From the NCBI GenBank assembly GCA_023382535.1, contig JAHDWA010000078.1, positions 1 to 38,712 on the forward strand: a stretch of 38,712 nt of DNA, read 5' to 3'. This DNA is from Anaerolineae bacterium. GTDB taxonomy: Bacteria > Chloroflexota > Anaerolineae > 4572-78 > J111. The notes under the pieces are model-generated. The model searched no databases. It saw nothing but the letters and a program-made list of their open reading frames with translations, and was not told the DNA's origin. How positions within the stretch are numbered: the stretch's first letter is position 1; every line of letters starts with the position of its first letter. Shown here one piece after another: positions 18,547-35,058 of the stretch. A program made the translations under genes and the position numbers.

Positions 18547-18611
18547 TGATAATCGAACATACACAGGCTTACCTCAAGTTAAGCTCAAGAAAACCTAAAG
18601 CTTTCCTAAAG
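18547..18611 (-). promoter_or_regulatory. 11-bp-period direct-repeat promoter module, copy 1
   Basis: Read on the minus strand: CTTTAGG, CTTTAGG, CTTGAGC, CTTGAGG, each 11 bp after the previous one (18,611 down to 18,572). After 19 bp comes TTATCA (18,552-18,547) as the -10. Predicted transcript start is about 18,540, giving a short leader to the PRC-barrel gene at 18,502. Confidence 0.75.
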
Positions 18612-18655
18612 AACGCCAACATTAAATCTTCATTACGGGGTAATGAGAAAACACC

Positions 18656-18685
18656 TTGACAAATTTATTCCAAAAGTAGTATAGT
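18656..18685 (+). promoter_or_regulatory. sigma-70 promoter of the lacI-type gene
   Basis: Perfect -35 TTGACA at 18,656-18,661 and -10 TATAGT at 18,680-18,685, 18-bp spacer. The predicted start, near 18,692, coincides with the operator at 18,693. Confidence 0.75.
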
Positions 18686-18692
18686 ATGGACA

Positions 18693-18704
18693 GGAAACGT
18701 TTCC
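18693..18704 (+). promoter_or_regulatory. LacI-family operator (GGAAACGTTTCC)
   Basis: A perfect 12-bp palindrome with the central CG typical of LacI/GalR-family sites, placed at the transcription start of the lacI-type gene. It points to negative autoregulation. I found no second copy in the window. Confidence 0.75.
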
Positions 18705-18759
18705 GGTACCTGGTCTTTGCAATAATGGGATTTGGGGCGGGAACAAAGGAGTTGTCATT

Positions 18760-19767
18760 ATGCCAGCAACCATCCACGATGTGGCCAAACGGGCAGGTGT
18801 GGGTATTGGCACAGTGTCCAGTGTTCTAAATAACAGCCGCCCTGTCCTTGAGGCGACCCGTCAAAAAGTCTTATCCGCCGTTGCCGAGTTGGACTTTATG
18901 CCAAACCCAATGGGGCGCCGCTTATCTAAAGGCAAAACCCAGACGGTGGCGGTGATTATCCCCTTCTTCACCGGACTGTCACAGGGAGAGCGTTTTCGGG
19001 GGGTGATGTCGGTTATTGCCGCGAGTGACTACGAAATTAATCTCTTTAGCTTTGAAACGGTTCCCCAACGTGATAAAATCCTGCAAAAAGTGCTGCATCA
19101 CGGCCAGGTAGATGGTTTACTTATCTTCTCTCTCAATCCCACCGAGGCTGATTTGCGCCGGATCTCTCGCGAAAATCTGCCCACCGTGTTGGTTGAGGTT
19201 GACAACCCCCATTTGTCCCGGATCGTTCGGGATGATGTGACGGCTGCTCGAAAGGCCACCCAGCACCTTATTGATCTGGGTCATCGCAAAATTGGCTACG
19301 TGGGAGACTACCTGGATGACCCGTTTGGCTTTCCTTTTAGCCGTCACCGTTACCTGGGCTACTGCCAGGCCCTCGAAACGGCCGGCATTCCTATCCGTCC
19401 GGCCTACCAACGTCAGGGAGGGTGCAGCCGCGAAGAAGGCCGGCAGATGGCCCTGGAACTTCTGCGCCTGCCTGATCCCCCCACCGCTATTTTTGCCTAC
19501 AGTGATGTGCATGCGCTGGGCATTATTGAGGCTGCCGGCGCTTTGAATCTGGATGTTCCGGGTGATCTGTCTGTCATTGGTTACGACGATATTGCCCCCG
19601 CCGATTTTGTTCGATTGACGACGATTCGCCAGCAACTGTTTGAGTCAGGCTGGCAGGGCATTAATCTGCTGCTAATGCTCATGGCCCAGCCCGACACACC
19701 CCCTGTCAAGCTCGAACTGCCGACCGAGCTGGTGGTTCGCCAGACTACGGCTCCACCTAAACGCTAA
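18760..19767 (+). CDS. LacI-family transcriptional regulator
   Basis: 335 aa. The N-terminal helix-turn-helix TIHDVAKRAGVGIGTVSSVLNNSRPV (4-29) with the hinge RRLSKGKTQTVAVIIPFF is diagnostic; a periplasmic-binding-like effector domain follows (about 62-330) with DLGHRKIGYVGDYLDD, PPTAIFAYSDVHALGII and DLSVIGYDDI. The effector is probably a sugar or sugar phosphate. AAGGAG lies 8 bases before ATG. It sits between the mannosylglycerate operon and the sucrose/mannosylfructose-type operon and has its own operator; targets elsewhere are not visible here. It converges with the GT4 gene, 64 bases apart. Confidence 0.93.
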   Translation: MPATIHDVAKRAGVGIGTVSSVLNNSRPVLEATRQKVLSAVAELDFMPNPMGRRLSKGKTQTVAVIIPFFTGLSQGERFRGVMSVIAASDYEINLFSFETVPQRDKILQKVLHHGQVDGLLIFSLNPTEADLRRISRENLPTVLVEVDNPHLSRIVRDDVTAARKATQHLIDLGHRKIGYVGDYLDDPFGFPFSRHRYLGYCQALETAGIPIRPAYQRQGGCSREEGRQMALELLRLPDPPTAIFAYSDVHALGIIEAAGALNLDVPGDLSVIGYDDIAPADFVRLTTIRQQLFESGWQGINLLLMLMAQPDTPPVKLELPTELVVRQTTAPPKR

Positions 19768-19831: not shown

Positions 19832-21115
19832 TCAACTAACACCCTGTTTAGCGACCATCTGCACCTGCTCAAAGATCGTCAGAATTCGGCGGGCAATGCC
19901 CGTCCAACCAAAGTTGCGCCGGGCAAAACGCGAGCCTTCAACCGAGAGTTCGTGCGCCAGATTGGGATACAGCATCGGCATGGCTAACATGGCCCCGAAT
20001 TCCACCGGCCGGTTTGGGTCGGCAAAGAGGGCATGCTTGCCAAACTCGATCAAATTCGACAGACCGCCGTGCACCGTGACGACGGTGGAGGTACCACAGG
20101 CCATCGCTTCAATCGCCGCCATCCCAAAAGGCTCATAGCGGGAGGACAGAGCAAACACGCCGGCTGCCCGGTAGTAGTTGGCCAGGTCTTCGTCGGGAAT
20201 ATATTTTACCCACTCCACTTTATCGGTAATACCTAACTCCTGGGCCAGGCCTTTCAACTCGGCAACTCCGGCCTCATCCTGTTCAGAGTTGTCACTGCCA
20301 ATGGCCGCATTGAGGCGAGCATCCGGGACCAGGGTCAGCAGGGTTGGCAGCGACTGGAGTAACAAATCATAGCCCTTATTCATCGCCATACGCCCTACGG
20401 TGAGAACATCATGCCCGTGCAGGTTGTAACGCTGCTGTAGGTTTTGCCATTCGGCCTGGCGCACCGGTGAAAAACGGTTTTCGTCCATGCCGGGGGGAAT
20501 GGCCGTCACGTGTCGTTCCAACACGTCATACTGCTCCCGCAAAAGCTGGCTTTGGGGTTCGGTCGTGGCAATGATATGGTCGCAGTTGCGATAGGTCAGA
20601 AATTCCTTGTGAATCCGTTCTTTGAAACGGTAGCGCTGTTCCATTTCCTGCGCGTCCATATCCATGCCCATGTTGTGCCGCTTCCACCAGCCCAGCGAGT
20701 GGGGCGTATGCACGTGGGGAATATCCAACTCCTCGGCAATTTTTTGGCCTGCCCAGCCGGCATCCCAATAGTGCGAGTAAACTACCCCATACTGCCGGCC
20801 CCGGTTATGAATGGCGGCCAGGCAGTTGGTTACAAAAACTCCAATGTAGTCATGCATATCCTCTTTGCGAATGAATTTTTTACCGCCAAAAGGAATGCGC
20901 CAGACCGCAAAGTTTTCGTTGACCTCGTCAAATTCGGGCTGATCTTCAAAACGCCGGGTCACCAGGTCAACTCTGTAACCTAGCCGGCTAAAGCGCCTGG
21001 CCAGTTCTAACACGTAGACCACCTGGCCGCCCGTATCGGGTTTACCCAGTTCCGGTTCAGCGCTCACGTAGCCGTGCAGCGAAAGCATAAAAATAGAATT
21101 AAGCCGGTTCATCAT
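19832..21115 (-). CDS. GT4 glycosyltransferase, sucrose-phosphate / mannosylfructose-phosphate synthase family
   Basis: 427 aa. It opens with MLSLHGYVSAEPELGKPDTGGQ, then VVYVLELARRF and SHYWDAGWAGQ, VHTPHSLGWWK, ATTEPQSQLL, IPPGMDENRF, LTVGRMAMNKGYDLLLQSLP and the donor-site RYEPFGMAAIEAMACGT. This is the bacterial sucrose-phosphate synthase group that also contains Agrobacterium mannosylfructose-phosphate synthase; the opening motif looks closer to the latter. It would transfer glucose or mannose from a nucleotide sugar to fructose-6-phosphate. A matching phosphatase is encoded just upstream. The frame opens at 21,202, but ATG 21,115 has GAGGAGG 5 bases upstream, so I use it (ATG 21,112 also possible). 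Which sugar it uses cannot be decided from sequence. Confidence 0.85.
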   Translation of the reverse strand: MMNRLNSIFMLSLHGYVSAEPELGKPDTGGQVVYVLELARRFSRLGYRVDLVTRRFEDQPEFDEVNENFAVWRIPFGGKKFIRKEDMHDYIGVFVTNCLAAIHNRGRQYGVVYSHYWDAGWAGQKIAEELDIPHVHTPHSLGWWKRHNMGMDMDAQEMEQRYRFKERIHKEFLTYRNCDHIIATTEPQSQLLREQYDVLERHVTAIPPGMDENRFSPVRQAEWQNLQQRYNLHGHDVLTVGRMAMNKGYDLLLQSLPTLLTLVPDARLNAAIGSDNSEQDEAGVAELKGLAQELGITDKVEWVKYIPDEDLANYYRAAGVFALSSRYEPFGMAAIEAMACGTSTVVTVHGGLSNLIEFGKHALFADPNRPVEFGAMLAMPMLYPNLAHELSVEGSRFARRNFGWTGIARRILTIFEQVQMVAKQGVS

Positions 21116-21149
21116 AGTTACCTCCTCGATTGAACCCTCTTTGAAAAAC

Positions 21150-21902
21150 TCAGTTTTGTACAACTTGCCAGAAGCGCAAGCCCTCCAACACGCCGGCGGC
21201 ATGGGCTGCTTGAGCGTGATAGATGCGCTCGCCTTGCTTTTGCTTCAGCTCAACAGAAGCGTTGGCAACGACTATCCCTTTGTAAGAGGCGGCAAACATT
21301 TCCAGATCATTACCGGAGTCGCCGGCCACCACGACCCGCTCCGGCGGAATACCCAATCGCCGGCGCAAGTACTCGACGGCGCTACCCTTGCCCGATACAC
21401 GGGGGATGATGTCAAGATTTTTGCCACCCGAGTAAATTACTTTGACTTCCAGACTGGTTGTGGCCAGGTAGTCAAAAACCTGAGGTAGAATGGCCGGATC
21501 AGGCAGATCGTAACTGACCTTAAAGGGCGTTTGATATTCGTCTGGGTGGGCAGTCAAGCCGAGCTTGTTGAGGAAGGTCACAATCAGTTCTCGATCCCAC
21601 AACCGTTCGCCCTGACTGAAGCAGGCCCGCTTGAGCATCCGGCCATAAGGCTCGATCACTTCGCCGGTAACACCTTTTTGAATTTCTGTTCCTAACGCCC
21701 CGATTAGATAATTGGGAAAGGGCAAACTAACGACTTGGGCTAAAGTTTGGCGTAAGCTGGCGCAGGGCCGGCTTGAATTGTAAACCGTAAGCAGATGGGG
21801 CCGAGCCTGCAACTTTAGGGCCAACTGGCGCAAGGCGACCTCGTCGCCCAGTAAGGTGTCGTCTACATCTGAGACAAATAACCATCGGCTTGGGGAGTTC
21901 AT
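21150..21902 (-). CDS. sucrose-6-phosphate phosphatase-type HAD hydrolase (active form)
   Basis: 250 aa, SPP family. All catalytic motifs are intact: SDVDDTLLGD (D12 and D14), NSSR, KVSYDL, VSGKGSAVEYL and AGDSGNDLEMF. It should remove phosphate from the product of the GT4 enzyme encoded next (sucrose-phosphate or mannosylfructose-phosphate), pulling synthesis forward. Its ATG overlaps the stop of the upstream fusion gene by 4 bases (ATGA), and the GT4 start follows 34 bases after its stop. The same fold appears in inactive form at the N-terminus of the upstream protein. Confidence 0.88.
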   Translation of the reverse strand: MNSPSRWLFVSDVDDTLLGDEVALRQLALKLQARPHLLTVYNSSRPCASLRQTLAQVVSLPFPNYLIGALGTEIQKGVTGEVIEPYGRMLKRACFSQGERLWDRELIVTFLNKLGLTAHPDEYQTPFKVSYDLPDPAILPQVFDYLATTSLEVKVIYSGGKNLDIIPRVSGKGSAVEYLRRRLGIPPERVVVAGDSGNDLEMFAASYKGIVVANASVELKQKQGERIYHAQAAHAAGVLEGLRFWQVVQN

Positions 21903-23944
21903 TTTTCCTCCTTGGCTGAATCAAACATGTTTTCTGTCAGCGGCTCAAAATCGGCGGCAATTTGCTCGTGATGAAGCGCCTGGTAAGCGGCCACGTAACT
22001 GGCTGCGCTCCAGGCCTGGTGAGCTTTACCCATCGGCCGTCCGGTCTGGCCATGGAGCCACTCATTAAATTCCCACTCCTGGTAGAGGCCCAGACGGCAG
22101 GCTTCAGCCAGGGCTTTCAATTCCTGGTGAGCCAATTCCGTGCGGCCTAATTGGGCCAGAAAGCGCACCCACAGCCCGCCGATAAAGGGCCAAATTCCGC
22201 CATTATGATAATGATCAGGCAGGTTGAGGAAGTTGGTCACAAAATAATCTTTCCAATCGCTGGCGCCTGAGTAGATGGCAGGGTAAAAACATTTGACCGG
22301 ATAAGGCGCATTGACCCCCACCCCCCATAAAAAGTGAAAGAGCTGTTCCATCTGGTGGTCGTCCAGCAAGCCGACCAGCGCGGCCAGCAAGTTGGCGTAG
22401 ACATCGCAGCGCCAGGAGAAACCAAACGGGCTGATCTGCGCCAGCAGGTATTGGGCATCGCCCAGGCTGAACTGGGTCTCGGCAAATGACTCGCGGGCAT
22501 CCGACAGCTTTTTGGCGGTGGGCCAAAACTGCCGGAGAATCTTGCGGCGAATCCGGTTCGTTAACTCCTGATAAGTCTGGGCATCTTCATTCATCACGGC
22601 CGTTATAACGCTGAAATCACGGCAGGCGAGGTACCACAGCACTTCGTCGTAGAGCACGTTGTAAGAGCGGGGAAAGAGGTCCATCCAGTCGGACGATTCA
22701 GGAATCTCGATCAGGCCACAATTGTTGCTGTCGTGAGCGGTGAGCCACTGCATGGCCCGCTTAAGATGAGGATACAGGCCGGTCAGAAAAGTCCGGTTGC
22801 CGGTGTAAGCCGCGTAACGACAGCCTCCAATGACAAACCAGAGGACCGAGTCGATCGAGGCGATATCGCCGATGCCGCCGTAATCGGGCCGGCCGGTTTT
22901 GATTTGAACGTTGGCCGGAATTTGGCCGCTCTCGGTCTGATGTTCGGCCAGCAGTTCCAGGGTGCGCCGAAAACAGGCGGTCAGGTCCGGGTCATTCAGG
23001 CCCAAACTCCATAACCCGGTTTTGATGCCATCCCGACCCCAGACGGCAAAATAGTTGGAGTCACTGGCGGTGAGGGCGTTATCTACCAGGCTGGCCGCCG
23101 AAAAACCCATCGGGGTGATATTGCGGTGCAGGGAATGGATGGCTTGCTCCAGGGCTTGCCGGGTTAGGTCGGCGGTGGCCGATGTCACGAGAGGGCCAAA
23201 AAAGTGATAATGTTCAAGGCCTTCCAGTAACCCTCCGGCATGGGCGGCCTGGCTAAAGTAGGCCTGGAGTTGGACCGCCTCCTTCAGTCTGGGTGTGGCG
23301 TTGCTAACCACAATACCGCGAAAGCCGTACTGAAAAAGATCAATATGGTTACCACTGTGTCCCCCTACAAAAACTTGGTTGGGCGATAAGACCAGGGAAT
23401 GAGACAGGAATTGGACGGCCGGGCCAATCCCGGCCCGCTCCGGGATAATATCCAGGTAGAGTTCAAAGGAGTAGACCAGCCTGACTGGTAACTGCGCTTC
23501 AAGCAGAGCCAGACGGAGTTCGTCTAACAGCTCCGGCGAGGCGTTCTTTAAGTGGTAACTCACCTTTAAGGGGGTTTGATACTCCGGAGCTTGTAACTCT
23601 AGCTGTGGATAGCGCCTGCCCAAAAAATCCACAACTGCCTGCCGGGTAAAGCCAACTTGAATGTAGCGAAACCATTCATGCAGCGGGTACTCGCCCGGCA
23701 GCCGGTGAATTTCGGTGCCGACCGAAGAGATGACGTAATCGGGCAACAGCAGTTCATTTTTCTCAATTTGTTTGAGTTGGCTGGGTAGCTTCTGCCCTGA
23801 AAAATAGACCAGTAAAGTTGACTCTCGCACCCGCTGGAGGGCCTGGTGCAGGCGCTGCCGGTCTTCTTCAGCACCGCCGACCAGAACGCCCTGCAAATCA
23901 GCCACCAGTAAGCGAGTTTCATCAACAGTGGACCGAACGCTCAT
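21899..23944 (-). CDS. fusion: inactive SPP-like HAD domain + (alpha/alpha)6 glycoside hydrolase (invertase/GH100- or GH133-like)
   Basis: 681 aa. Residues 1-250 align with the sucrose-phosphatase next door, but the active site is lost: DVDDT becomes DLQGV (second Asp to Q18), the motif III lysine becomes I173, and GDSGND becomes GHSGNH (H196 and H200). K127 (KVSY) remains. Residues 255-670 have the pattern of an (alpha/alpha)6 hydrolase: FAVWGRDGIKTGLWSLGL, DIASIDSVLWFVIGG, IPESSDWMDLF, YHNGGIWPFIGGLWV and the C-terminal GKAHQAWSAASYV. Related folds include neutral invertases and glycogen-debranching-type glucosidases. It probably hydrolyses the sugar made by its operon, with the HAD domain as a sensor or binding domain (inference). 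No signal peptide. Confidence 0.8.
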   Translation of the reverse strand: MSVRSTVDETRLLVADLQGVLVGGAEEDRQRLHQALQRVRESTLLVYFSGQKLPSQLKQIEKNELLLPDYVISSVGTEIHRLPGEYPLHEWFRYIQVGFTRQAVVDFLGRRYPQLELQAPEYQTPLKVSYHLKNASPELLDELRLALLEAQLPVRLVYSFELYLDIIPERAGIGPAVQFLSHSLVLSPNQVFVGGHSGNHIDLFQYGFRGIVVSNATPRLKEAVQLQAYFSQAAHAGGLLEGLEHYHFFGPLVTSATADLTRQALEQAIHSLHRNITPMGFSAASLVDNALTASDSNYFAVWGRDGIKTGLWSLGLNDPDLTACFRRTLELLAEHQTESGQIPANVQIKTGRPDYGGIGDIASIDSVLWFVIGGCRYAAYTGNRTFLTGLYPHLKRAMQWLTAHDSNNCGLIEIPESSDWMDLFPRSYNVLYDEVLWYLACRDFSVITAVMNEDAQTYQELTNRIRRKILRQFWPTAKKLSDARESFAETQFSLGDAQYLLAQISPFGFSWRCDVYANLLAALVGLLDDHQMEQLFHFLWGVGVNAPYPVKCFYPAIYSGASDWKDYFVTNFLNLPDHYHNGGIWPFIGGLWVRFLAQLGRTELAHQELKALAEACRLGLYQEWEFNEWLHGQTGRPMGKAHQAWSAASYVAAYQALHHEQIAADFEPLTENMFDSAKEEK

Positions 23945-24078: not shown

Positions 24079-24139
24079 TCACATTGGCTCATTAACTGTG
24101 TCTGTAAGCTAAGAGTTCAATACTCAGAGCCAAAGGTTA

Positions 24140-24204
24140 GTCTAGCTGAAAATGAATGCCTTTACCTCAAGTTAAACTCAAGAAAACCTAAAGGTTTCCT
24201 AAAG
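24140..24204 (-). promoter_or_regulatory. 11-bp-period direct-repeat promoter module, copy 2
   Basis: Minus strand: CTTTAGG, CTTTAGG, CTTGAGT, CTTGAGG at 11-bp steps (24,204 down to 24,165). The -10 position (24,145-24,140) reads CTAGAC, the weakest of the five. The next minus-strand gene is the HAD-hydrolase fusion at 23,944. The first heptamer directly follows the U-tract of the mscS terminator. Confidence 0.7.
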
Positions 24205-24262: not shown

Positions 24263-25183
24263 TCACCCAGCCTGATCAGGGTGGGCAGGTTTCGCCCCGG
24301 CTTTGCCTTCAAGTAGATTGTGGTAGAAGCGCTGGGTAGGATAAGCAAAATCTATATCCGAGTGCCGGGAAAACTCCAGCAGGACATCCTCCCAGATGGC
24401 CTGCTCGCTGCCGCGCCGCTGTGTTGGCTCACACAAGTAGCGAATGGCAAGCATAACCCCACTGTCTTTGACGCTGGTATACACGGTAGGGGTCAGGACA
24501 GAGTAGGTTATCAGAAATCTGCGTGATGCTTCCTTGACTTTTCGCTCAGCCGCCTCGCTCAGATGCGCGCTGTGTTTGGCCGCAATGGCTTGCAGCAGTT
24601 GTTTCGCTTTCTGCCAGTTACTTTCAAAGGTTAGCAGCACCGGCATTTCGTTCCAGATATACTCAAACCCACGGCTGTAATTGGCCACAACCTCACTGAA
24701 CACAGCTCCATTGGGAACGTGAAGCACCCGGCCGGTGCTCTGATCGGCATCCACCCAATTGCCAATCTCCATCAAGCTAAACTGAAAGAGGCGCAGATCA
24801 ATCACATCTCCCCGCTGCTGGCCTAACTGGATTCGATCACCCACACTAAAGGGCCGGCGCCAGACAATGAAAGCCCACCCGGCCAGATTAACAATGAGCG
24901 GCTGCAAGGCAATGGCCAGGCCGGCGGAGAGGAGACCGAAATAAGTGGCCGTATTGCCAAGCCCGCCAATCCACAGAGGCCCTACCAGGAGGACGATGAG
25001 CGCCACAGCTACATAATCCGAAATCTTCCGCCATTGATAACGGGTGGCCGCGCTGTCGAAACGTTGCAGGGCAATCCGCAGCAGGAGACGGCGGAGCAGC
25101 CAGACGGTCAGAATAATCAGCAGTGAGATAAACAGGTTCACCAGGAGAGAAGGTGTAAAGGTTATCTCACTTAACCACTGCAT
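24263..25183 (-). CDS. MscS-family mechanosensitive channel
   Basis: 306 aa. Transmembrane segments about 12-35, 57-75 and 80-105; the pore helix and beta domain show the MscS signature GLLSAGLAIALQPLIVNLAGW and RPFSVGDRIQLGQQRGDVIDLRL, then VLHVPNGAVFSEVVANYSRG. MscS channels open on membrane tension and release solutes after hypo-osmotic shock, fitting the osmolyte genes nearby. The frame begins at GTG 25,204, but ATG 25,183 has GGAG 8 bases upstream and is preferred. It ends with a strong terminator and may be co-transcribed with the response regulator, 148 bases upstream. Confidence 0.9.
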   Translation of the reverse strand: MQWLSEITFTPSLLVNLFISLLIILTVWLLRRLLLRIALQRFDSAATRYQWRKISDYVAVALIVLLVGPLWIGGLGNTATYFGLLSAGLAIALQPLIVNLAGWAFIVWRRPFSVGDRIQLGQQRGDVIDLRLFQFSLMEIGNWVDADQSTGRVLHVPNGAVFSEVVANYSRGFEYIWNEMPVLLTFESNWQKAKQLLQAIAAKHSAHLSEAAERKVKEASRRFLITYSVLTPTVYTSVKDSGVMLAIRYLCEPTQRRGSEQAIWEDVLLEFSRHSDIDFAYPTQRFYHNLLEGKAGAKPAHPDQAG

Positions 25184-25331
25184 GGGATTATCTCCAATCG
25201 GCACTATTGGGATTAAGGGGACAGGCGCTTATCGGGCCAAAATTGGGCCTATTTGAACAAAGAGGGCTTGGATTACTGTTGAAAACTGCCTGTCACCAAG
25301 TTTTTCACGAATTTGAAACGTGAGTGCTGTT

Positions 25332-26030
25332 TCAGGGTTCAAGCTCTGGGGCGACAAACTTGTAACCGACTCCCCGCACCGTTTGAATGTATTGGGGCTG
25401 GCGTGGATTTACCTCAATGTGTTCTCGCAGCCAACCGATATGAACGTAGAGAACCTGTACAGCTCCAGCAAATTCTTCACCCCAGATCGCGTCGAGGAGG
25501 TAATTGGTGGTCAGAACTGTGCCGGCGTTGGCCAGCAGCAAGCGCAAGAGTTCAAATTCTTTGGGCGGCAGGTCAACCGGCTCTCCCCGCACCCGGACCT
25601 CACGCCCGGCGGGATCGAGCCAGACATCGCCAACCCCCAGCACTTCATTCCCCGCCTGAAGCGGTTCTCGTGCCATCCGGCGCAGAACAACCCGAATGCG
25701 GGCCAATAGTTCGCGCATCCCAAACGGTTTGGTCACATAGTCCTCAGCGCCGAGTTCCAAACCGATGACAATATCGTTCTCCTGCCGGCGGCCGGTCAGA
25801 AAAATGATCGGCACATTCAGTTCGCGCTGCAAGATCCGGGCGATCTCCAGACCATCGCTTTCGGGCAGGCCAATGTCCAGCAGGATCAGGTCGGGCGGGT
25901 CAATGCGGGCTATGGTCAAGGCTTCTTCGCCGGTCTCGACCGTAACCGCCGTATAACCCTCCCGTTCAAGCCGGTGTTTAAGGCTCCGCCGGAGCAGCGC
26001 ATCGTCATCTACGACAAGTATTTTTGCCAT
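25332..26030 (-). CDS. OmpR/PhoB-family response regulator
   Basis: 232 aa. Receiver domain with acidic pocket D8-D9-D10, phospho-acceptor D52 (LILLDIGLP), T79 and K101 (VTKPFG), then a winged-helix DNA-binding domain (about 135-228) with ELLRLLLANAGTVLTTNYLLDAIWG and the C-terminal hairpin QYIQTVRGVGYKF. Such proteins bind direct repeats spaced 11 bp, exactly the spacing of the promoter modules in this window, so it is the best candidate for their regulator (inference). Its likely kinase is encoded 2 kb upstream, beyond the antiporter genes. Start: ATG 26,030; a TTG at 26,036 is possible. A motif shared with the kinase promoter lies at 26,080-26,107. Confidence 0.93.
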   Translation of the reverse strand: MAKILVVDDDALLRRSLKHRLEREGYTAVTVETGEEALTIARIDPPDLILLDIGLPESDGLEIARILQRELNVPIIFLTGRRQENDIVIGLELGAEDYVTKPFGMRELLARIRVVLRRMAREPLQAGNEVLGVGDVWLDPAGREVRVRGEPVDLPPKEFELLRLLLANAGTVLTTNYLLDAIWGEEFAGAVQVLYVHIGWLREHIEVNPRQPQYIQTVRGVGYKFVAPELEP

Positions 26031-26107: not shown

Positions 26108-26140
26108 CCCTATTATCCGCAGCAGTCCTCACCCGGATAG

Positions 26141-26500
26141 CTATCTCGGCCTGCGATTTAGACCCCATGCCTGTATCACCGGAATGACAAACAGGATACC
26201 GGTGTCCGGCTCGTCGAAGACGCCGGTGATTTCCTCGGTGGCGGCCACCAATGCATCTATATCAAAACCATCCGGCACAACGGCAAATAGGGTCCGGTGA
26301 GGCTCCTCCCGGCTGCGGAGCAGGTCCTCCAACGAGGGAAAGAGGGGTAAATCATCCCGCAAGGCGCGCCGGCCAAATTCATGACTCAGGCCGGAACTGT
26401 CGAGAATGGTCGCCCCTGAGACGCCCACGGTCACCCAGGCGGCCAGCACCTCTTCGGTTTTATCAGGGTCATCAAGCACTAACACGACGAGTTGGGTCAT
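26141..26500 (-). CDS. PII-like small regulatory protein linked to the antiporter
   Basis: 119 aa. The pattern beta (MTQLVVLVLDD), helix (PDKTEEVLAAWVTVGV), beta (SGATILDSSG), a long variable loop, TLFAVVPD, helix and IGTV-like end (GVFDEPDTGILFVIPVIQAWG) is that of PII-like ferredoxin-fold proteins. Relatives are often encoded beside transporters, which they regulate by binding nucleotides or ions. It starts inside the 3' end of the antiporter gene (29-base overlap, AAGGAGGT 5 bases before ATG), so the two are co-expressed. Role as an antiporter regulator is inference. Confidence 0.65.
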   Translation of the reverse strand: MTQLVVLVLDDPDKTEEVLAAWVTVGVSGATILDSSGLSHEFGRRALRDDLPLFPSLEDLLRSREEPHRTLFAVVPDGFDIDALVAATEEITGVFDEPDTGILFVIPVIQAWGLNRRPR

Positions 26501-27692
26501 TACTGACCTCCTTTCCTTGAAACGCCAGTCGCAACATAGGTGGGGTAGCCAGGGTGGTGACCAGCACCATAATCACAACGACGGTGAACACGTCGGCCTC
26601 AATGACCCCGCTCGACACCCCCACCCCGGCAATAATCAAACCGACTTCTCCCCGCGAGGCCATCCCGACGCCAATACGCAGCGCCTCGCGCCAGGTTGTA
26701 CCGCCGAGTTTGGCTCCGGCGCCCCCACCGATCAGCTTGGCCAGAATAGCGACCAGGCTAATAACCAGGGCAAAGCCGAGACTATTGGCCGACAATAAGC
26801 GGGCATTGGCGGTCAGCCCAATTCCTACCAGAAACAGGGGAACAAAGAAGGCATAGGTCAGGGGGTGGATGCCCCGCTGAATATCATCCTGCAAGTGACT
26901 GCCGGAGAGAGCTACTCCGGCGATAAAGGCGCCGGTGATCGCCGCCACCCCGCCAATGGCCTCCGAGGCCCAGGCGGAAACCAGGACACTGACCACCACG
27001 AAGGAGATGAGCGGCTGGCTGACAGGCAGGCGTCTGGCCCAGGTTGCGGCCCTGGGTAGGAGCCAGGTGGCCAGCCAAAACACGCCCAGCAGGAAGAGCA
27101 GCATGCGGGCGATAATCCAAACCAGGCTCCCCACTCCCCCACCTCCGCCGGCGGCGATGGCGATGAAAGCTGAGAGAACCGCGATAGCCAGAACGTCGTC
27201 CACCACCGCCGCCCCTAACAGGATCAATCCTTCCCGGCTGCGCAGAAACCCCAGTTCCATTAAGGTCTGAGCCGAGATACTGACCGAGGTGGCGGCCAGC
27301 ACAATGCCCAGAAAGACGGCCTGGTTGACGGTGTAACCAAACGGCAAGGCCACGGCCACGCCCAGGCCAATCGGGACGAGGACGCCTAACACGCCAACCA
27401 GCACGGCCGGCTTACCTGTTTTGGTCAGGTCCGATAGGTGGATTTCCAACCCGGCGGTAAACATCAGAAAGATCACGCCCAGCTCGCCCAATTCGTGCAG
27501 CGTATCAACAGTATGGGCGGCCTCGAAGTAAGGCTGGCCGAAGACGTTTAATACCGACGGCCCCAGCAACAACCCAACGACGAGTTCACCCAGGACAGGG
27601 GGCTGGCCAAGCTGGTTAGCCAGCCACCCGCCCGCTTTGGCCAGAGCGATGATGAGCGCCACGGCCAGGAGTAAAGGGATAATAGTTGGCAC
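26472..27692 (-). CDS. CPA2-family cation:proton antiporter (NapA/Kef type)
   Basis: 406 aa with about 12-13 hydrophobic segments. Diagnostic motifs: GQPPVLGELVVGLLLGPSVL, FLMFTAGLEIHL, LAATSVSISAQTL, the ion-binding pair in GAAVVDDVLAIAVL, TGAFIAGVALS and GMASRGEVGLIIA. The Asp-Asp pair is typical of electrogenic Na+/H+ exchangers (NapA-like) rather than KefC. The frame is open from 27,764, but GTG 27,692 has AAAGGA 6 bases upstream and starts at the natural N-terminal helix. There is no C-terminal TrkA-N domain; the PII-like protein encoded next may take over regulation. The gene belongs to an operon beginning at 27,933. Confidence 0.9.
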   Translation of the reverse strand: MPTIIPLLLAVALIIALAKAGGWLANQLGQPPVLGELVVGLLLGPSVLNVFGQPYFEAAHTVDTLHELGELGVIFLMFTAGLEIHLSDLTKTGKPAVLVGVLGVLVPIGLGVAVALPFGYTVNQAVFLGIVLAATSVSISAQTLMELGFLRSREGLILLGAAVVDDVLAIAVLSAFIAIAAGGGGGVGSLVWIIARMLLFLLGVFWLATWLLPRAATWARRLPVSQPLISFVVVSVLVSAWASEAIGGVAAITGAFIAGVALSGSHLQDDIQRGIHPLTYAFFVPLFLVGIGLTANARLLSANSLGFALVISLVAILAKLIGGGAGAKLGGTTWREALRIGVGMASRGEVGLIIAGVGVSSGVIEADVFTVVVIMVLVTTLATPPMLRLAFQGKEVSNDPTRRVSA

Positions 27693-27723: not shown

Positions 27724-27933
27724 TCAACGCAGTAGCAGGTACATGACGAGCAGTCCCAGGACAAAGGCGCCCAGCATCATGCCTCCCCAGACCATAAAGG
27801 TATCACCCTCGTAGGAGAAGCTGGAAAAACGGCGATGAATAAAGGCGGCGATAGGTTCGGAGAATACGCCCCCGACAATCAACAAGCCGATGGCGATGAC
27901 CAGGACGAGCAGCACCGCTGTGATTGGATCCAT
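27724..27933 (-). CDS. small two-helix membrane protein, antiporter operon
   Basis: 69 aa: helix 1 about 5-27 (AVLLVLVIAIGLLIVGGVF), a short basic/aromatic loop (HRRFSSFSYEG), helix 2 about 45-68 (VWGGMMLGAFVLGLLVMYLLL). I do not recognise a family. It is the first gene of the antiporter operon, 31 bases before the antiporter start, with GAGG ahead of the ATG, and it is directly downstream of a direct-repeat promoter module (leader about 57 nt). An accessory subunit of the antiporter is possible. Confidence 0.65.
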   Translation of the reverse strand: MDPITAVLLVLVIAIGLLIVGGVFSEPIAAFIHRRFSSFSYEGDTFMVWGGMMLGAFVLGLLVMYLLLR

Positions 27934-27996
27934 CAGGTGACCTCGACAAGACAGGCGGCAGATAAATCTTCTGCCAATTCAGGATTTTCACTCTCA

Positions 27997-28061
27997 GGAT
28001 AACTAAAAATACCCCCGCTTACCTCAAGTAAAACTCAAGAAAACCTAAAGCTTTCCTAAAG
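27997..28061 (-). promoter_or_regulatory. 11-bp-period direct-repeat promoter module, copy 3
   Basis: Minus strand: CTTTAGG, CTTTAGG, CTTGAGT, CTTGAGG at 11-bp steps (28,061 down to 28,022), then 19 bp and TTATCC (28,002-27,997). It drives the antiporter operon starting at 27,933. Confidence 0.75.
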
Positions 28062-28113: not shown

Positions 28114-29547
28114 TTAAGACAGAGATGGCCCCTGGATGACCTCCACAACTTTGGGCAAGGTAAAAGTAAAGCGGGTGCCCTGGTTCGGTTCACTCTCAAC
28201 CCAGATTTGTCCTCCGTGCGCGGTGATGATTTCACGACAAATCGCCAGCCCCAGGCCCATCCCCTGTTTTTCAGGGGGGCGCGATTCATTACCCCGATAA
28301 AACTGTTGGAAGACATACGGCAATTCCTCAAAGGCAATGCCTGTCCCCGTATCCGCGACGCGCACCCACAGGGCGTCGGTCTGCTCCCCGGCTTGTACCG
28401 TAACCCGCCCCCCGCGCGAGGTGAATTTGAGCGCATTATCCATCAAATTAGTTAAGACCTGAATTAAGCGATCTTCATCTGCCTGGACCCAGGGCAGATG
28501 GCGCGGTATTTCGACCGACAAAGCAACGCCTAAGTGAGCGGCGATAGGTTCAAAATTAGCCACACTGGCCCGAATGACCCGTTCGAGCGAAATGTTAGTT
28601 TGATCCAACTGCATGGGTCGAAGTGTCTGCTGCTGCCGGCTATGGAGGGTGGCAACCAGCCGTTCGAGCCGGGCCACTTCCTCTTCGATGCCGGTAAACA
28701 AAGCATCACGGATTTCGATGTCGGCGTCTGTATCCTCGTGAAGCGTCTCTACCGCTGCCCGTATGCCGGCCAGCGGCCGGGTCAATTCGTGGGCAATCGC
28801 CGCCAGTTGGCGGGCGCGGGTCTGCTCAGCCTCTTCAAGCCGAGCAGCCATCTGGTTGAAACTTTGAGCCAGGCTGCCAATTTCGTCCCCGCTGCGAGCG
28901 GTCACACGCGCCTGATAATTGCCCCGGGCAATGTCCTGAACCCGCTCGGTCAATTCGCGCACGGGGCGGGCGATGGTGGTGGCCAGGCCCAGGCTCAAGC
29001 CCAGGCCAAGGATCACGGTCAGGATCACTCCTTCCAGGATGACCCATTGCAGGCGGCTAAAAGCCGTGCGCAGATAGGCCACTTCGTATGACACGCGTAA
29101 TGCGCCGATTGTATCGCCATTCCGCTGCAAGGGCAGCACCACGTAAGCCACTTCTGTCGAAAAACCCGGCCCAATGCCCTGGGCCGGCTCTCCCCGCAGC
29201 GCCTGGGCGACGGCTGCATCCTGGTACGATTGCCCCAGGCGACTTGCATCCTCAGCCCGGTTTGAGGCCAGAACGGTCCCTTCCTTTGACAATAGTAACA
29301 CTCGGGCGTCGCTTAAGCGGGCTATCTCTGCCAGAAAACGCTGCGCCGCCAGGCGGTCCTCAATCAGCTCCGGTTGGCGCTCTGTCTGGTCGAGCAGCAG
29401 GCGAGCCTGAAAGGTGAGTTGCTGCAGCAAGGTTTGGGAGAAAAGTTCTTCCAGGGAATAGAAGAGAAACAGGCTAAGGAGCGGCGCCAACAGAAAAATA
29501 GGCAGCGTATTGCTGACCATGAGCTTGATGCGCAGGTTTGGCTTCAT
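28114..29547 (-). CDS. membrane sensor histidine kinase (HAMP-HisKA-HATPase)
   Basis: 477 aa. Transmembrane helices about 10-30 and 168-190 enclose an extracytoplasmic sensor region (35-165). HAMP spans about 190-242, the phospho-acceptor is H253 in AAIAHELTRPLAGIR, the N box is LTNLMDNALKF, with G1 DTGTGI and G2 GMGLGLAICREI. The conserved HELRTPL has become HELTRPL, a common variant. It probably phosphorylates the OmpR-type regulator encoded 2 kb downstream on the same strand; the antiporter operon lies between. Signal unknown; osmotic or envelope stress is suggested by the neighbours. GGAG lies 8 bases before ATG. Confidence 0.92.
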   Translation of the reverse strand: MKPNLRIKLMVSNTLPIFLLAPLLSLFLFYSLEELFSQTLLQQLTFQARLLLDQTERQPELIEDRLAAQRFLAEIARLSDARVLLLSKEGTVLASNRAEDASRLGQSYQDAAVAQALRGEPAQGIGPGFSTEVAYVVLPLQRNGDTIGALRVSYEVAYLRTAFSRLQWVILEGVILTVILGLGLSLGLATTIARPVRELTERVQDIARGNYQARVTARSGDEIGSLAQSFNQMAARLEEAEQTRARQLAAIAHELTRPLAGIRAAVETLHEDTDADIEIRDALFTGIEEEVARLERLVATLHSRQQQTLRPMQLDQTNISLERVIRASVANFEPIAAHLGVALSVEIPRHLPWVQADEDRLIQVLTNLMDNALKFTSRGGRVTVQAGEQTDALWVRVADTGTGIAFEELPYVFQQFYRGNESRPPEKQGMGLGLAICREIITAHGGQIWVESEPNQGTRFTFTLPKVVEVIQGPSLS

Positions 29548-29731: not shown

Positions 29732-29796
29732 CTTTAGGTAAACTTTAGGTTTTCTTGAGGTCAACTTTAGGTAGAGAACTTTATCTTCAATTATCC
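29732..29796 (+). promoter_or_regulatory. 11-bp-period direct-repeat promoter module, copy 5 (plus strand)
   Basis: CTTTAGG at 29,732 and 29,743, CTTGAGG at 29,754, CTTTAGG at 29,765, then 19 bp and TTATCC at 29,791-29,796. Opposite orientation to the other four, and it faces the only plus-strand target, the membrane protein gene at 29,937. The rest of the 389-bp gap (29,548-29,936) holds the kinase promoter motif and an unremarkable leader of about 130 nt. Confidence 0.75.
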
Positions 29797-29936
29797 TACA
29801 TATAGGCTAGAGAAGCGGTGTAACTCATGTAATTTACGACTTACTTTGTTTACGCGTTCTCTCCCCCTCATTTAACAACTTTGGCCATGAACCAAAGGGT
29901 TAATGTCAAACAAACTCAACCCAAAAAAGGAGCAAA

Positions 29937-30665
29937 ATGAATAATTTACAGAAGATGGGCGGTGTTGCTGCCCTGTATGAGGCGGCAGCATACGTATTGG
30001 GTATGATGTTCTTTATCTTCATAGTGGATTATGCTGGTGTGGCCAACCCTGTCCAGAAGGTGGCTTTACTCGAGGACAACCAGGCTATCATGTATATGAT
30101 GACTCTGCTCATCTATGTGGTCTTCGGCGTCTTTCTGGTTGTTCTGGCGCTGGCGCTTTACGAGCGCTTGAAGGCCGGCTCACCAGCGATGATGCAGGTG
30201 GCGACTGCCTTTGGGCTGATCTGGGCCGGCGTAGTGATTGCTAGCGGTATGATCTTTAACATCGGCATGGGCGTCGTCATCGAACTGTATGGCGCAGACC
30301 CGGCTCAAGCCGCGACGGTCTGGTTGGCAATTGATTCTGTGATTGAAGGATTAGGGGGCGGGGTTGAGATTTTAGGCGGTTTATGGCTTCTCTTGTTAAG
30401 TTGGGCAGCTTTGCGGGTAGGAGAGCTTCCCAAGGCACTGAACTACCTGGGCGTGGCGATTGGTGTGGCCGGTATTCTCTCGACTGTCCCGGCTCTCGGC
30501 GAACTGGGAGGGCTCGTTTTTGGGCTGGGCCAGATCGTGTGGTTTGTATGGGTAGGGGTTATCCTGGTCCGCCGGAGCCCAAGCGTGGTGCAAAAACTGG
30601 ACGCATTTGTGGTTGCAGATATATCTCTGCAATCACCGGTTAATCAATCAGCCAAACAATCTTGA
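29937..30665 (+). CDS. multi-pass membrane protein, DUF4386-like
   Basis: 242 aa with about six or seven hydrophobic segments (for example VLGMMFFIFIVDYAGV, MTLLIYVVFGVFLVVLALAL, GLIWAGVVIASGMIFNIG, ILGGLWLLLLSWAAL and GLVFGLGQIVWFVWVGVIL). Topology and the N-terminal GGVAALYEAAAYVLGMM resemble DUF4386 proteins, whose function is unknown. AAGGAG lies 5 bases before the ATG. It sits downstream of plus-strand promoter module copy 5, so it belongs to the predicted regulon. The following gene is a second, clearer DUF4386 protein, so the two may be distant paralogues. Confidence 0.7.
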   Translation: MNNLQKMGGVAALYEAAAYVLGMMFFIFIVDYAGVANPVQKVALLEDNQAIMYMMTLLIYVVFGVFLVVLALALYERLKAGSPAMMQVATAFGLIWAGVVIASGMIFNIGMGVVIELYGADPAQAATVWLAIDSVIEGLGGGVEILGGLWLLLLSWAALRVGELPKALNYLGVAIGVAGILSTVPALGELGGLVFGLGQIVWFVWVGVILVRRSPSVVQKLDAFVVADISLQSPVNQSAKQS

Positions 30666-31552: not shown

Positions 31553-32524
31553 ATGAAAGCTATTGTCTATACAAAATATGGATCACCGGATGTTCTTCAA
31601 CTTAAAGAGATCGAAAAACCTACGCCCAGGGACAATGAAGTCCTGATAAAAATCTGTGCGACAACCGTAGAGACAACAGACACTATCTTTCGGCGGGGCA
31701 AGACGCTTTCGGCAAGATTATTCACCGGTCTCTTTAAACCCAAATTTACGATACCGGGGGGTGAGTTTGCCGGAGTAATTGAAGCAGTGGGCAAAGATGT
31801 CACCCGATTTAAAGAAGGTGACCGGGTCTTTGGAACGGCCGGTACCGGTTTTAGTACGAGTGCGGAGTACATCTGCCTGCCTGAAAACGGCTCGATGGCC
31901 TCAAAGCCGGACAACATGACCTACGAGGAAGCCGTGTCCATTCACCCGGGGGCATTAACCGCACTGCCAAATCTGAGAGATGCCGCAAATATTCAGCGCG
32001 GGCAGAAAGTGCTTATCAACGGCGCTTCTGGCAGTATCGGAACCAGTGCGCTCCAGCTTGCGAAGTACTTCGGGGCGGAAGTAACCGGTGTATGCAGCAC
32101 GGCGAATGTAGAGCTGGTGAAATCCCTGGGGGCCGATGGGGTCATTGATTACAAGCAAGAGGACTTCACCAGAACCGGTCAGACCTACGACATCATTTTC
32201 GACACGGTCGGCAAGAGTTCATTTTCACGTTGTAAGGATGCGCTAAAGCAAGGCGGCATCTATCTTACCACTGTCATCACCCCGGCCATTATGTGGCAGA
32301 TGCCGTGGACTTCAAAGTTTGGTAGCAAAAAGGCAGTGATTGTCTTCGCCGGTTTGCGGTCAGCCAGCGAAAAGAATGAAGATCTGGCCTTCTGCCTTGA
32401 GCTTGTTACGGCGGGGGCGCTTAAGCCGGTCATTGATCGCTGCTTTCCATTGGAACAGATTGCCGAGGCTCACCGGTATGTCGAAAAAGGACACAAAAGG
32501 GGAAGTGTCGTCATAACTGTGTAA
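31553..32524 (+). CDS. zinc-independent MDR oxidoreductase (quinone oxidoreductase-like)
   Basis: 323 aa. GroES-like N-terminal domain ([20 protein letters not shown]) and Rossmann domain with [29 protein letters not shown] (NAD(P)H binding), KEGDRVFG and the C-terminal [24 protein letters not shown]. The structural and catalytic zinc cysteines of alcohol dehydrogenases are absent, placing it with zeta-crystallin-like NADPH:quinone or enone reductases, which detoxify reactive carbonyls. AAGGAA lies before ATG. It follows the DUF4386 gene and converges with the permease gene. Confidence 0.88.
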
Positions 32525-32547
32525 AGCGTACTATCCGGGGCGCTTTT
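32523..32547. terminator. possible bidirectional terminator between convergent genes
   Basis: AAAGCG at 32,523-32,528 and CGCTTT at 32,541-32,546 form a 6-bp stem with A/T-rich ends on both strands, between the convergent oxidoreductase and permease genes. The 12-nt loop makes it weak. Confidence 0.35.
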
Positions 32548-32577
32548 CATCGTCAGGTTCGCTGGACCTAAGTCGCT

Positions 32578-34896
32578 TTAGATGTTTCTGGGGGCAGAAC
32601 TAGGCTGCAAAATCATCTCGCGTAGTAAAGATTTAACCGGGCCGTGGCGACGCTTAACCATGATGGTGGTCACCTTGGCGCGGACGGCCACCTGTTCCGG
32701 AATATTGCCCATGAGCAAGTTCTTGAAGAGCGGCTCGTTGGTGGCTCCAATGACGATCAAGTCATAGTCCTCAGCCACCTGGAGGATGGTTTCGACTACA
32801 TTGTTCCCCTCAATAACCTGCCGGTCAAACTCATAGGGCAGACCGTCCACCGATTGAGCAATATCCTGCCAGGCCCGCACCCACTCCGGCTCTGTCGCGC
32901 CCGGACGGATAACGCGAAGGGCGGTTACCTTGACCGGGCCGTTGCTTTCTTGAATGGCCATGTTGGCTGCCATCTGGGCGGCCCGCCGGCTGTTTGGCCC
33001 ACCGGCAACCGGGGCCAGGATCGCTTTGAGCGGACGATATTCGCGGTAGCGGACCACGGCAATGTCCGTCGGCGGGTTGTCCACAATATTGTCAATCACG
33101 CTGCCAAAAACGCGGCCCGCCGTGTTGGTGTAGCCCGGCCAACCCAGAACCATTAAATCAGTGGCGTTTTCCTGGACGGTTTTTCGGACGGCCTTGGCTA
33201 CATCACGGCCCAGGCGGATCATACTGTGGACCGGCACGTCCCACGCCTTCGCTTCCTTAATCACGATTTCCAACGAGGGGCGGCCTTCTTTGAGAAAAGT
33301 CCGGCCCTCCCTCAAGTCCAGTTGAGGCGGAACACGAGCCACATGCAGCGCGAGGAGTTCTCCATCGTGCTGTTTCGCCAGAACTGCTCCAATCCGGCCC
33401 AGAATGTGCGCCTGTCCCTGCGTCGCCACCGGCACCAGCACCGAATAGTTTTTGCTGACCAGGACCTCTTCCAGGAGAATTTCTTTGGGTTTTTCCAGTT
33501 TTTCGATCCTGGTAAAGTAGCCCCAGTAGAGCAGTATTCCGGCCACAATCCAGGCCACCGCCACATACCAGCCAGTCGGGCTAAAGGTGAACAAGAAGAG
33601 CGCCAGAGCGATCATGGCGATGATGGCCAGCAGGGGAATTAGCGGAACAAAGGGGGTGATGAAACCCCGGTCCAGATCGGGCCGCTGCTGGCGCAGGCGC
33701 ATCATCGAGATATTGACCTGGATAAACAGGAACAGAAACATCAAGTCGGCCGCCGCCGCCACGTCTTCGATGGGCAAAGCCCAGGCCATCCCCGTGATGA
33801 GCAGGCCGGAAAGGAGCACGGCCCAGTAGGGCGTATGCCGGATGGGGTGGATGGCGGCAAACAGTTTCGGCAGGTTATGATCGCGGCCCATGGCAAAGGA
33901 GACGCGCGACGAAGAGTAGGTGGTGGCGTTCAGGGCCGACATGGTAGAGGCCAGGGCACTGATGAGCAAAATCAGCGCGCCATAGGGCATCACCTGTGCG
34001 GCCGCTTCGACAATCGCCACCTCTCCTTTGGCCCCTAAATACTGGTAGGTCCGCATTCCTGCCGGGGCCGTAATGGCCCCGATGGCCACAAAAGCTACCA
34101 GGATATAAATTAACACGACCCCGACAATTGAGATAAACGTGGCGCGGGGCAGATTACGCTTGGGGTCTTTGATCTCTTCCCCGGATTGGGCAATGATCTC
34201 GTAGCCTTCAAAGGCAATAAACGTCAGCCCCATTGCCACCAGGACCCCGCTCCAGCCGTTGGGCAGAAAGCCGGTGGTAAAGCGGGTCGTCCAGCCTTCC
34301 GGATGCTGAAACATAGCTACCAGGCCAAAACCACAGAAGAGGGCCAGGATGATCACTTTAGTCACCGTCACCACATTGCCGACCGTGCCTGTCTCTGAAA
34401 CGCCGCGATAGTTCAGGGCAGTGAAAATGACGATGATGAGGGTCATAAATACCAGTTGCCAGGTTTCCAGGATGAAACCAAAGCCAGGGAGACCCGCCAG
34501 GAGGTAAAGCTCGGCGGCAAAGCGGCCAAAGGCTAAAGCGTAAAGGCTGCCGGCAACCGCATGCGCAAACCAACTCATCCACCCCCCCAGAAAGCCCTGA
34601 GTGCCTCCCAACGCTTCTTTCACCCATAAGTAGCCGCCGCCCGCTTCCGGGAAAGCCGAACCTAACTCGGCATAAGCCATAGCCGTCAGCGTGGCCACCA
34701 CGCCGTTGAGAAAAAAGGCCAGGACCAGGGCCGGACCTGCCGCGCCCGCTGCTACACCGGTCAGTACAAAAATACCGGCGCCAATCATCGCCCCAACACC
34801 GATCATTGTTACATCAAACAGACTCAGGTCGCGGCTTAAGGTTACTTCAATAGGGTGATGAGAGCCACTATCCTCTGATTTATGGTTGGTTCTCAT
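32578..34896 (-). CDS. APC-family amino-acid permease fused to two universal-stress domains
   Basis: 772 aa. Residues about 15-475 are an APC transporter with 12 helices: DLSLFDVTMIGVGAMIGAGIF (first helix with the G-A-G substrate loop), AYAELGSAFPEAGGGYLWV, FIAFEGYEIIAQSGEEIKDPKRNLP and SALNATTYSSSRVSFAMGRD. Residues about 490-628 and 636-755 are cytoplasmic UspA-like domains (LVPVATQGQAHILGRIGA; AILAPVAGGPNSRRAAQMA, ending DLIVIGATNEPLFKNLLMGNIPEQVA). APC-Usp fusions are known; the Usp part is thought to regulate transport. The gene lies about 90-100 bases after the -10 of promoter module copy 4, so it belongs to the predicted regulon. The substrate could be an amino acid or another compatible solute. 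Confidence 0.92.
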   Translation of the reverse strand: MRTNHKSEDSGSHHPIEVTLSRDLSLFDVTMIGVGAMIGAGIFVLTGVAAGAAGPALVLAFFLNGVVATLTAMAYAELGSAFPEAGGGYLWVKEALGGTQGFLGGWMSWFAHAVAGSLYALAFGRFAAELYLLAGLPGFGFILETWQLVFMTLIIVIFTALNYRGVSETGTVGNVVTVTKVIILALFCGFGLVAMFQHPEGWTTRFTTGFLPNGWSGVLVAMGLTFIAFEGYEIIAQSGEEIKDPKRNLPRATFISIVGVVLIYILVAFVAIGAITAPAGMRTYQYLGAKGEVAIVEAAAQVMPYGALILLISALASTMSALNATTYSSSRVSFAMGRDHNLPKLFAAIHPIRHTPYWAVLLSGLLITGMAWALPIEDVAAAADLMFLFLFIQVNISMMRLRQQRPDLDRGFITPFVPLIPLLAIIAMIALALFLFTFSPTGWYVAVAWIVAGILLYWGYFTRIEKLEKPKEILLEEVLVSKNYSVLVPVATQGQAHILGRIGAVLAKQHDGELLALHVARVPPQLDLREGRTFLKEGRPSLEIVIKEAKAWDVPVHSMIRLGRDVAKAVRKTVQENATDLMVLGWPGYTNTAGRVFGSVIDNIVDNPPTDIAVVRYREYRPLKAILAPVAGGPNSRRAAQMAANMAIQESNGPVKVTALRVIRPGATEPEWVRAWQDIAQSVDGLPYEFDRQVIEGNNVVETILQVAEDYDLIVIGATNEPLFKNLLMGNIPEQVAVRAKVTTIMVKRRHGPVKSLLREMILQPSSAPRNI

Positions 34897-34993
34897 ACAT
34901 TCTTCCTTACGACAGGAGTACCAGGATCATATCTCTCTTATAAAGCAGCTACGAATGCAATAAAACGTACAAGAAATCACAGCTTCTATTTCA

Positions 34994-35058
34994 GGATAAT
35001 TGAAGGTAAAGGTATTTACCTCAAGCCGACCTCAAGAAAACCTAAAGCTTTCCTAAAG
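34994..35058 (-). promoter_or_regulatory. 11-bp-period direct-repeat promoter module, copy 4
   Basis: Minus strand: CTTTAGG, CTTTAGG, CTTGAGG, CTTGAGG at 11-bp steps (35,058 down to 35,019), then 19 bp and TTATCC (34,999-34,994). It precedes the permease-Usp gene (34,896). Confidence 0.75.

Follow-up and report, generated by a model that had tools for sequence, protein, structure and literature searches.

What controls five promoters that carry the same four-part repeat within a single stretch of a Chloroflexota genome? The stretch, hereafter the window, is the whole 38,712-nucleotide (nt) contig JAHDWA010000078.1 of an Anaerolineae bacterium (assembly GCA_023382535.1). Each of its five elements is an array of four direct heptamer repeats, followed at a fixed distance by a -10 hexamer and then by a gene start. 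An OmpR-family response regulator and a sensor histidine kinase are encoded among the arrays, and similar arrays lie beside orthologous kinase genes in relatives. Judged by sequence comparison, the five arrays are very probably operators bound and activated by this two-component system. For the whole explanation, in which binding and activation by this system answer an osmotic stimulus, we put the probability at roughly 0.65.

Proposed operator arrays and their distance to the -10 hexamer

The arrays, each of four heptamers with a period of 11 base pairs (bp), occupy these positions:

18572..18611, minus strand: operator copy 1; -10 hexamer TATCAT at 18546-18551
24165..24204, minus strand: operator copy 2; -10 hexamer TAGACT at 24139-24144; hairpin and T-run directly before
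28022..28061, minus strand: operator copy 3, 52 bp after the kinase stop codon; -10 hexamer TATCCT at 27996-28001; weak hairpin and T-run before
35019..35058, minus strand: operator copy 4; -10 hexamer TATCCT at 34993-34998; hairpin and T-run before
29732..29771, plus strand: operator copy 5; -10 hexamer TATCCT at 29792-29797

Heptamers start at 0, 11, 22 and 33 in all five copies. A preliminary description of the window had reported these arrays, and its coordinates and strands (four copies minus, one plus) proved correct throughout. The 20 heptamers comprise CTTTAGG (11), CTTGAGG (6), CTTGAGT (2) and CTTGAGC (1), and they follow a set order: the first two are CTTTAGG, the third CTTGAGN and the fourth CTTGAGG (CTTTAGG in copy 5). 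With a matrix built from themselves, the 43-bp cores score 68-75 bits, against 2.4 for the best non-overlapping place in the window. Beyond the core, the copies have little in common save a T-run upstream and the -10 hexamer downstream.

The distance to this hexamer is equally constant, a TAnnnT motif beginning 20 bp past the fourth heptamer in every copy. The earlier reading, which placed TTATC(C/A) 19 bp away in four of the five copies, was literally true and one base out of phase; the copy it had counted as an exception carries TAGACT, which fits TAnnnT at 20 bp, so that all five conform. With the -10 read in this way, the fourth heptamer spans about -39 to -33 instead of -38 to -32, and the proposal that it replaces a -35 box is retained. 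Direct-repeat half-sites with an 11-bp period are expected of OmpR/PhoB-family operators, and a site that extends into the -35 region while keeping a constant spacing to the -10 is class II-like, a geometry from which activation is predicted. Each copy faces a start codon, as had been claimed, with predicted leaders of 37-188 nt (37, 188, 56, 90 and 133 nt for copies 1 to 5).

The two-component system and its relatives

The proposed binder and its sensor are encoded between the arrays:

25332..26030, minus strand: OmpR-family response regulator (receiver and Trans_reg_C domains, Pfam)
28114..29547, minus strand: sensor histidine kinase (HAMP, HisKA and HATPase_c domains, Pfam) with the H-box HELTRP

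The regulator combines a receiver, whose aspartate is present (LLD, residue 52), with a winged-helix Trans_reg_C domain, and its orthologues are likewise encoded near arrays. Its closest solved structures are RegX3, KdpE and MtrA. Among the 25 listed of 104 NCBIfam matches it falls under every equivalog cut-off and is therefore not filed as any of these regulators; it reaches 194.5 bits against 296.2 for PhoB (TIGR02154), 176.3 against 325 for KdpE (NF007820) and 207.9 against 300 for MtrA (NF040689).

To find relatives, the best 80 of 540 confirmed loci from a regulator scan of genome contigs were taken. The closest regulator (71% identity) lies in locus L001, and the top three places of the window-core matrix across the 80 loci are all in this locus, within an operator (12141-12246) of ten heptamers at 11-bp steps, in which a 33-bp unit is repeated about three times. 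All five close loci, with regulators at 68-71% and kinases at 54-62% identity, carry a like array after the kinase gene, starting 35 (L001), 80 (L147), 91 (L148), 98 (L149) and 67 bp (L150) past its stop codon. Another lies 56 bp after the kinase stop in L137, where identities are lower (regulator 51%, kinase 32%). Three of the close loci (L147, L149 and L150) are paralogous systems of one genome, G416, each with its own array, and in L147 a further array precedes a divergently oriented gene whose product has a DksA-type zinc finger. This supports the earlier proposal of a putative OmpR/PhoB-type regulon with class II geometry, since an OmpR-family regulator and a kinase are encoded among the copies and relatives keep the array.

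The kinase itself has a narrow distribution. In the taxonomic order of genome G001 it matches 3 of 20 genomes at E<=1e-80 (G416, whose three copies have 62, 56 and 54% identity, G001 at 59% and G418 at 58%). In the class, 6 of 396 genomes match, namely the three of the order and three at 35-36%, and in the phylum 15 of 400 at E<=1e-60, all except G001 at no more than 42%; these two wider scans scored four candidates per genome, which makes their negatives weak. As a control, the window heptamer matrix was applied to 17 loci with distant kinases (32-42%; 14 from the phylum scan and 3 from the class scan), and only L097, the same place as L137, exceeded a four-box score of 12.1, at 21.3. The five close loci score 39.8, 31.4, 39.6, 16.0 and, in the G418 locus with its one-base gap, 10.3; locus L004 as a whole, without its kinase gene singled out, scores 4.2. 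Since most distant-kinase loci are devoid of an array, the link is to close orthologues.

In 11 aligned sites 20 of 66 columns are invariant, and TAnnnT stands at offset 20 in all 11, compared with at most 4 at any other offset from 8 to 35. Over all 19 sites, TAnnnT begins at exactly 20 bp in 15 (5/5 in the window, 10/14 elsewhere), against a mean local frequency of 0.013 for this motif. These 11 sites form model R1, built from sequence only, from which L148 was omitted for its one-base gap; both G418 sites, L148 and L168, have one 10-bp step among their heptamers. Half of the eight sites outside the model (L148, L168, L166 and L173) keep TAnnnT at 20 bp. One of them, L173 in genome G761, stands with a regulator at 46% and a kinase at 33% identity and an HtrA-type gene nearby, and its hexamer is TATGAT. 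A heptamer-only matrix, restricted to the window's 28 heptamer columns and devoid of spacers and -10, was run over 1.45 Mb from 90 loci (L002-L080 and eleven others, duplicate places left out). L149, both L147 sites, L167, L166, L001 and L137 exceed 22.6, the highest of ten shuffle maxima.

The preliminary description had proposed a matrix scan of relatives with the same gap to the -10. Such a scan succeeds where a close two-component system exists. At E<=0.001, model R1 matches 3 of the 20 genomes of the order, the same three that hold the kinase at E<=1e-80; at E<=0.1 a fourth is added (G407, 0.0067). G418, which contributed no site to the model, gives two matches (2.4e-5 and 7.4e-5). Elsewhere matches are few: 3 of 400 phylum genomes at E<=0.001, of which G001 and G219 are both in the model and the third, G026, owes its match to a simple 11-bp tandem repeat, which we rejected. 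In the family of G219, 3 of 41 genomes match (G219, G761 and G772). Single genomes likewise hold few sites: four of them gave between 1 and 6 at E<=1. The gap itself did not hold throughout, as 4 of the 8 sites outside the model depart from 20 bp.

A looser phylum-wide consensus allowing two mismatches matched 42 of 400 genomes, with TTAAGG or TTCAGG arrays at many of the listed places, and was set aside as too loose in favour of model R1. Four-repeat arrays of TTAAGG and TTCAGG at 11-bp steps occur, for instance, at G077:C1:1298393-1298442 and G380:C55:59-108, and are perhaps the sites of other regulators. An exact-pattern search of viral contigs found CTTTAGG/CTTGAGG at 11-bp steps in one contig (L164 75-118 and L165 14789-14832), which we take to be T7-like from a nearby T7-type promoter. 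The terminal repeats of T7-type phages contain CCTAAAG heptamers. A phage origin was rejected: the matches were confined to two stretches of a single contig that has a tandem end repeat, a likeness we put down to chance, and no link to a regulator was seen there.

Recognition helices differ along with half-sites. The window regulator carries AGAVQVLYVHIGWLRE, that of L150, with altered half-sites, DGAVQVLYVRINWLRE, that of L137, with CTTAAGG-type half-sites, GEPQVLYVHIRWLRE, and those of L138 and L139, with CTTAAC-type half-sites, GDPKTLDVHIHWLRQ. After the kinase genes of L002 and L003, whose regulators have QVVYV helices, no array was seen. A joint change of recognition helix and half-site fits these loci, few as the cases are. 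The array of L138 and L139, again after the kinase gene and at 11-bp steps, reads CTTTAAC, TCTTAAC, TCTTAAT, TTTTAAA; it precedes a small membrane-protein gene, with TAnnnT at 21 bp by eye.

The kinase lineage has a marked H-box, near residue 253 in the window. Across the window and six loci it is HEL(A/T/G/V)RP, and the HELxRP pattern (x being any residue) recurs in 119 of the best 120 out of 271 homologues at E<=1e-50, whose names, where given, include Chloroflexota, Caldilineaceae and Anaerolineae. Typical bifunctional HisKA kinases have Thr or Asn four residues after the phosphorylated His (H-E/D-x-x-T/N). The window kinase has Arg there, and the glutamate on which kinase activity depends is retained. 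In the HisKA proteins covered by the cited part of one study, this Thr/Asn was required for phosphatase but not for kinase activity (PMC3510030), and we predict that phosphatase activity has been lost in the window kinase.

A hairpin with a T-run abuts the first heptamer at 24140-24204 and 34994-35058 and in L137, L147 (9320) and L149. A terminator as a constant part of the module was considered and rejected, for it precedes some copies and not all, and is more likely the end of the preceding gene.

Genes behind the sites and the stimulus they suggest

The genes behind the five window copies are as follows:

17624..18502, minus strand: PRC-barrel protein, first after copy 1
14380..17547, minus strand: alpha-mannosidase-like protein of glycoside hydrolase family 38 (GH38), collinear after the PRC-barrel gene with a 76-bp gap
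12893..14311, minus strand: mannosyl-3-phosphoglycerate synthase (PF09488, E 2.2e-151), collinear, 68-bp gap
12022..12942, minus strand: HAD phosphatase, from its position probably mannosylphosphoglycerate phosphatase
11080..11985, minus strand: universal stress protein (Usp) with two Usp stretches, collinear
21899..23944, minus strand: sucrose-phosphatase-like domain fused to a glycoside-hydrolase-like domain, first after copy 2
21150..21902, minus strand: sucrose-phosphatase (S6PP) protein, above the Pfam and below the NCBIfam cut-off
19832..21202, minus strand: glycosyltransferase of family 4 (GT4), sucrose-phosphate-synthase-like, below the NCBIfam cut-off; mycothiol MshA scores higher
27724..27933, minus strand: membrane protein of 69 amino acids (aa), first after copy 3, no Pfam family at cut-off
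26472..27692, minus strand: Na+(K+)/H+ exchanger of CPA2 type, below the NCBIfam and above the Pfam cut-off
26139..26500, minus strand: P-II-like small protein, weak Pfam match below cut-off
24263..25204, minus strand: MscS-type mechanosensitive channel downstream of the regulator, with no array of its own
32578..34896, minus strand: amino-acid permease fused to Usp domains, after copy 4
29937..30665, plus strand: DUF4386 membrane protein, first after copy 5

Two corrections apply to the targets named in the preliminary description. It had overlooked the 69-aa membrane-protein gene as the first after copy 3, and two of its sets are better labelled as compatible-solute genes, of the mannosylglycerate and the sucrose type. 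In the putative operon behind copy 1, gaps of 76 and 68 bp are followed by a 50-bp overlap and then 36 bp, and no minus-strand terminator-like site was found in these gaps. Copy 2 faces three overlapping genes, all under their NCBIfam equivalog cut-offs. Copy 3 is followed on the same strand by the 69-aa membrane protein, the exchanger, the P-II-like protein, the regulator and the MscS channel; because the regulator lies downstream on that strand, positive feedback is possible. Beyond its first gene, copy 5 is followed by another DUF4386 gene and one for an alcohol dehydrogenase. One window thus holds a mannosylglycerate set (11080-14311) together with sucrose-type genes. Divergent from copy 1, a strong sigma-70-like promoter (11/12 matches) lies at 18656-18685 on the plus strand, before a LacI-type gene.

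Relatives extend the list. Receptors of cyclic di-AMP (c-di-AMP; PF06153) stand behind sites in L001, L147, L148 and L166, DksA-type zinc fingers in L001 and L147, a Usp-glycosyltransferase behind the L149 site, and HtrA-type proteases in L137 and L173. The L168 site precedes a GT4 enzyme, the trehalose-phosphate synthase OtsA (GT20, E 1.1e-140) and a trehalose phosphatase (E 4.8e-30). A membrane protein of about 70 aa comes first after the array in the window and in L149, L148 and L166 (48-51% identity to that of the window), and a shortened version was seen by eye in L168. Taken together, these predicted targets suggest a response to osmotic stress, with some share of general stress.

Under the explanation we favour, the kinase would sense osmotic or ionic stress and phosphorylate the regulator, two dimers of which would bind head-to-tail on the four half-sites spaced by 11 bp. 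The downstream dimer, at about -39 to -33, would take the place of a -35 box and recruit sigma-70 RNA polymerase, which would thereby be placed on the TAnnnT -10 fixed 20 bp further on. The predicted output is that compatible-solute synthesis (mannosylglycerate and sucrose-type), cation/proton exchange and stress proteins are switched on, with copy 3 possibly driving the regulator itself.

Several results weigh against this explanation. The four misses outside the model are L167 (TATCAA), L174 (TAnnnT at 21), L169 and L170, all weak sites, and for L166 and L173, counted as hits, the model match itself extended to the -10. With the heptamer-only matrix, L150 (18.2) and L148 and L168 (15.6 each) do not rise above the shuffle maxima, and the four-box register of L150 was picked from two. 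Of the three genomes matched in the order, G001 and G416 had themselves contributed to model R1, which leaves G418 as the independent one. Just 1 of the 17 distant-kinase loci has an array, that of L173 is 2.3 kb away from the kinase gene, and no regulator was found near the G772 site (L174) at E<=1e-8. As to the stimulus, the mannosylglycerate genes are tied to copy 1 by collinearity only, the DUF4386 and alcohol dehydrogenase genes of copy 5 do not argue for osmotic stress, a MutL/B12-binding protein lies behind the doubtful L167 site, and the HtrA targets of L137 and L173 hint at envelope stress.

The last point bears on the most serious competitor, in which the arrays serve this same two-component system and its signal is stress of the cell envelope or of a general kind. 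Usp domains appear repeatedly, in the window as well as in L149, and WalK and BaeS are among the kinase's nearest profiles, all below cut-off. We consider this unlikely, because the genes behind the sites encode three kinds of compatible-solute enzymes, c-di-AMP receptors and a cation antiporter, and the HtrA loci have the more distant regulators (46 and 51% identity). Repression by the regulator at these arrays, or binding by another OmpR-family paralogue, is less probable still. These genomes encode many OmpR-family regulators, and the TTAAGG and TTCAGG arrays at 11-bp steps show that the format recurs in the phylum; yet every array stops short of the -10 on its upstream side and none covers the start site, as expected of an activator, and the array follows the orthologous kinase gene in all five close loci. 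Altered half-sites in L150 and L137 also accompany altered recognition helices, in few cases. A recently duplicated or mobile repeat with no regulatory role might account for the near-identical cores, including a TTTT spacer identical in 5/5 window copies, which suggest recent copying or gene conversion. This is very improbable, since the copies all face gene starts, conservation is confined to the operator and the -10, and relatives retain the half-site order and the 20-bp distance while their spacers drift. Activation by the encoded two-component system under osmotic stress is the explanation we carry forward.

Known systems and the meaning of the proposed regulon

In kind, the proposed system is familiar. 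The pho box of PhoB, as described in the cited portions of two reports, consists of 11-nt direct repeats (seven well-conserved positions and four less so) bound head-to-tail over the -35 region (PMC4415409, PMC3348028). To that extent the window arrays resemble it, as 11-bp direct repeats covering the -35 region. They differ in their half-site, CTT(T/G)AGG as against CTGTCAT, in having four half-sites with a fixed 20 bp to the -10, and in that no phosphate genes were seen behind the sites examined here. The KdpE operator, according to the part of the report cited, has T-rich direct repeats of 6 bp with 5 bp between them (TTTATA/TTTACA, the first two T invariant; PMC3264566). It shares with the window arrays, as far as that account goes, the 11-bp period and a theme of osmotic balance, and KdpE is among the regulator's nearest solved structures; however, it has two half-sites instead of four, and no kdp genes were seen behind the sites examined.

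A further parallel is actinobacterial MtrAB, whose OmpR-family regulator binds direct repeats with a 5-bp spacer and activates the ectoine (compatible-solute) operon under osmotic stress, in the portion of the study cited (PMC13189361). On that account an OmpR-family regulator, direct repeats and control of compatible solutes are common to both, the control being predicted from sequence here, whereas the half-site reported there (GtnAcC), the phylum and the targets differ. In the literature searched we found no described box with this sequence, in line with the preliminary description, although an earlier description is possible; nor did we find a mapped Chloroflexota two-component operator, which is weak evidence of absence. 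The box, the lineage and the regulon thus appear undescribed in that literature.

A broader and more tentative idea is that these systems form a distinct Chloroflexota lineage of the OmpR family with four-half-site osmotic-stress operators. Its HELxRP kinases would lack phosphatase activity and be reset otherwise, perhaps via the c-di-AMP-binding P-II-like proteins found repeatedly among the targets, and joint changes of helix and half-site would keep parallel systems apart, such as the three in G416. We regard this as speculative.

For this lineage, sequence alone yields a regulator, a sensor, an operator, a promoter spacing and a list of targets. The regulon would join compatible-solute synthesis (sucrose, mannosylglycerate and trehalose) and c-di-AMP receptors under one signal in an environmentally common phylum, and the paralogous systems lend themselves to the study of joint changes in regulator and operator specificity.

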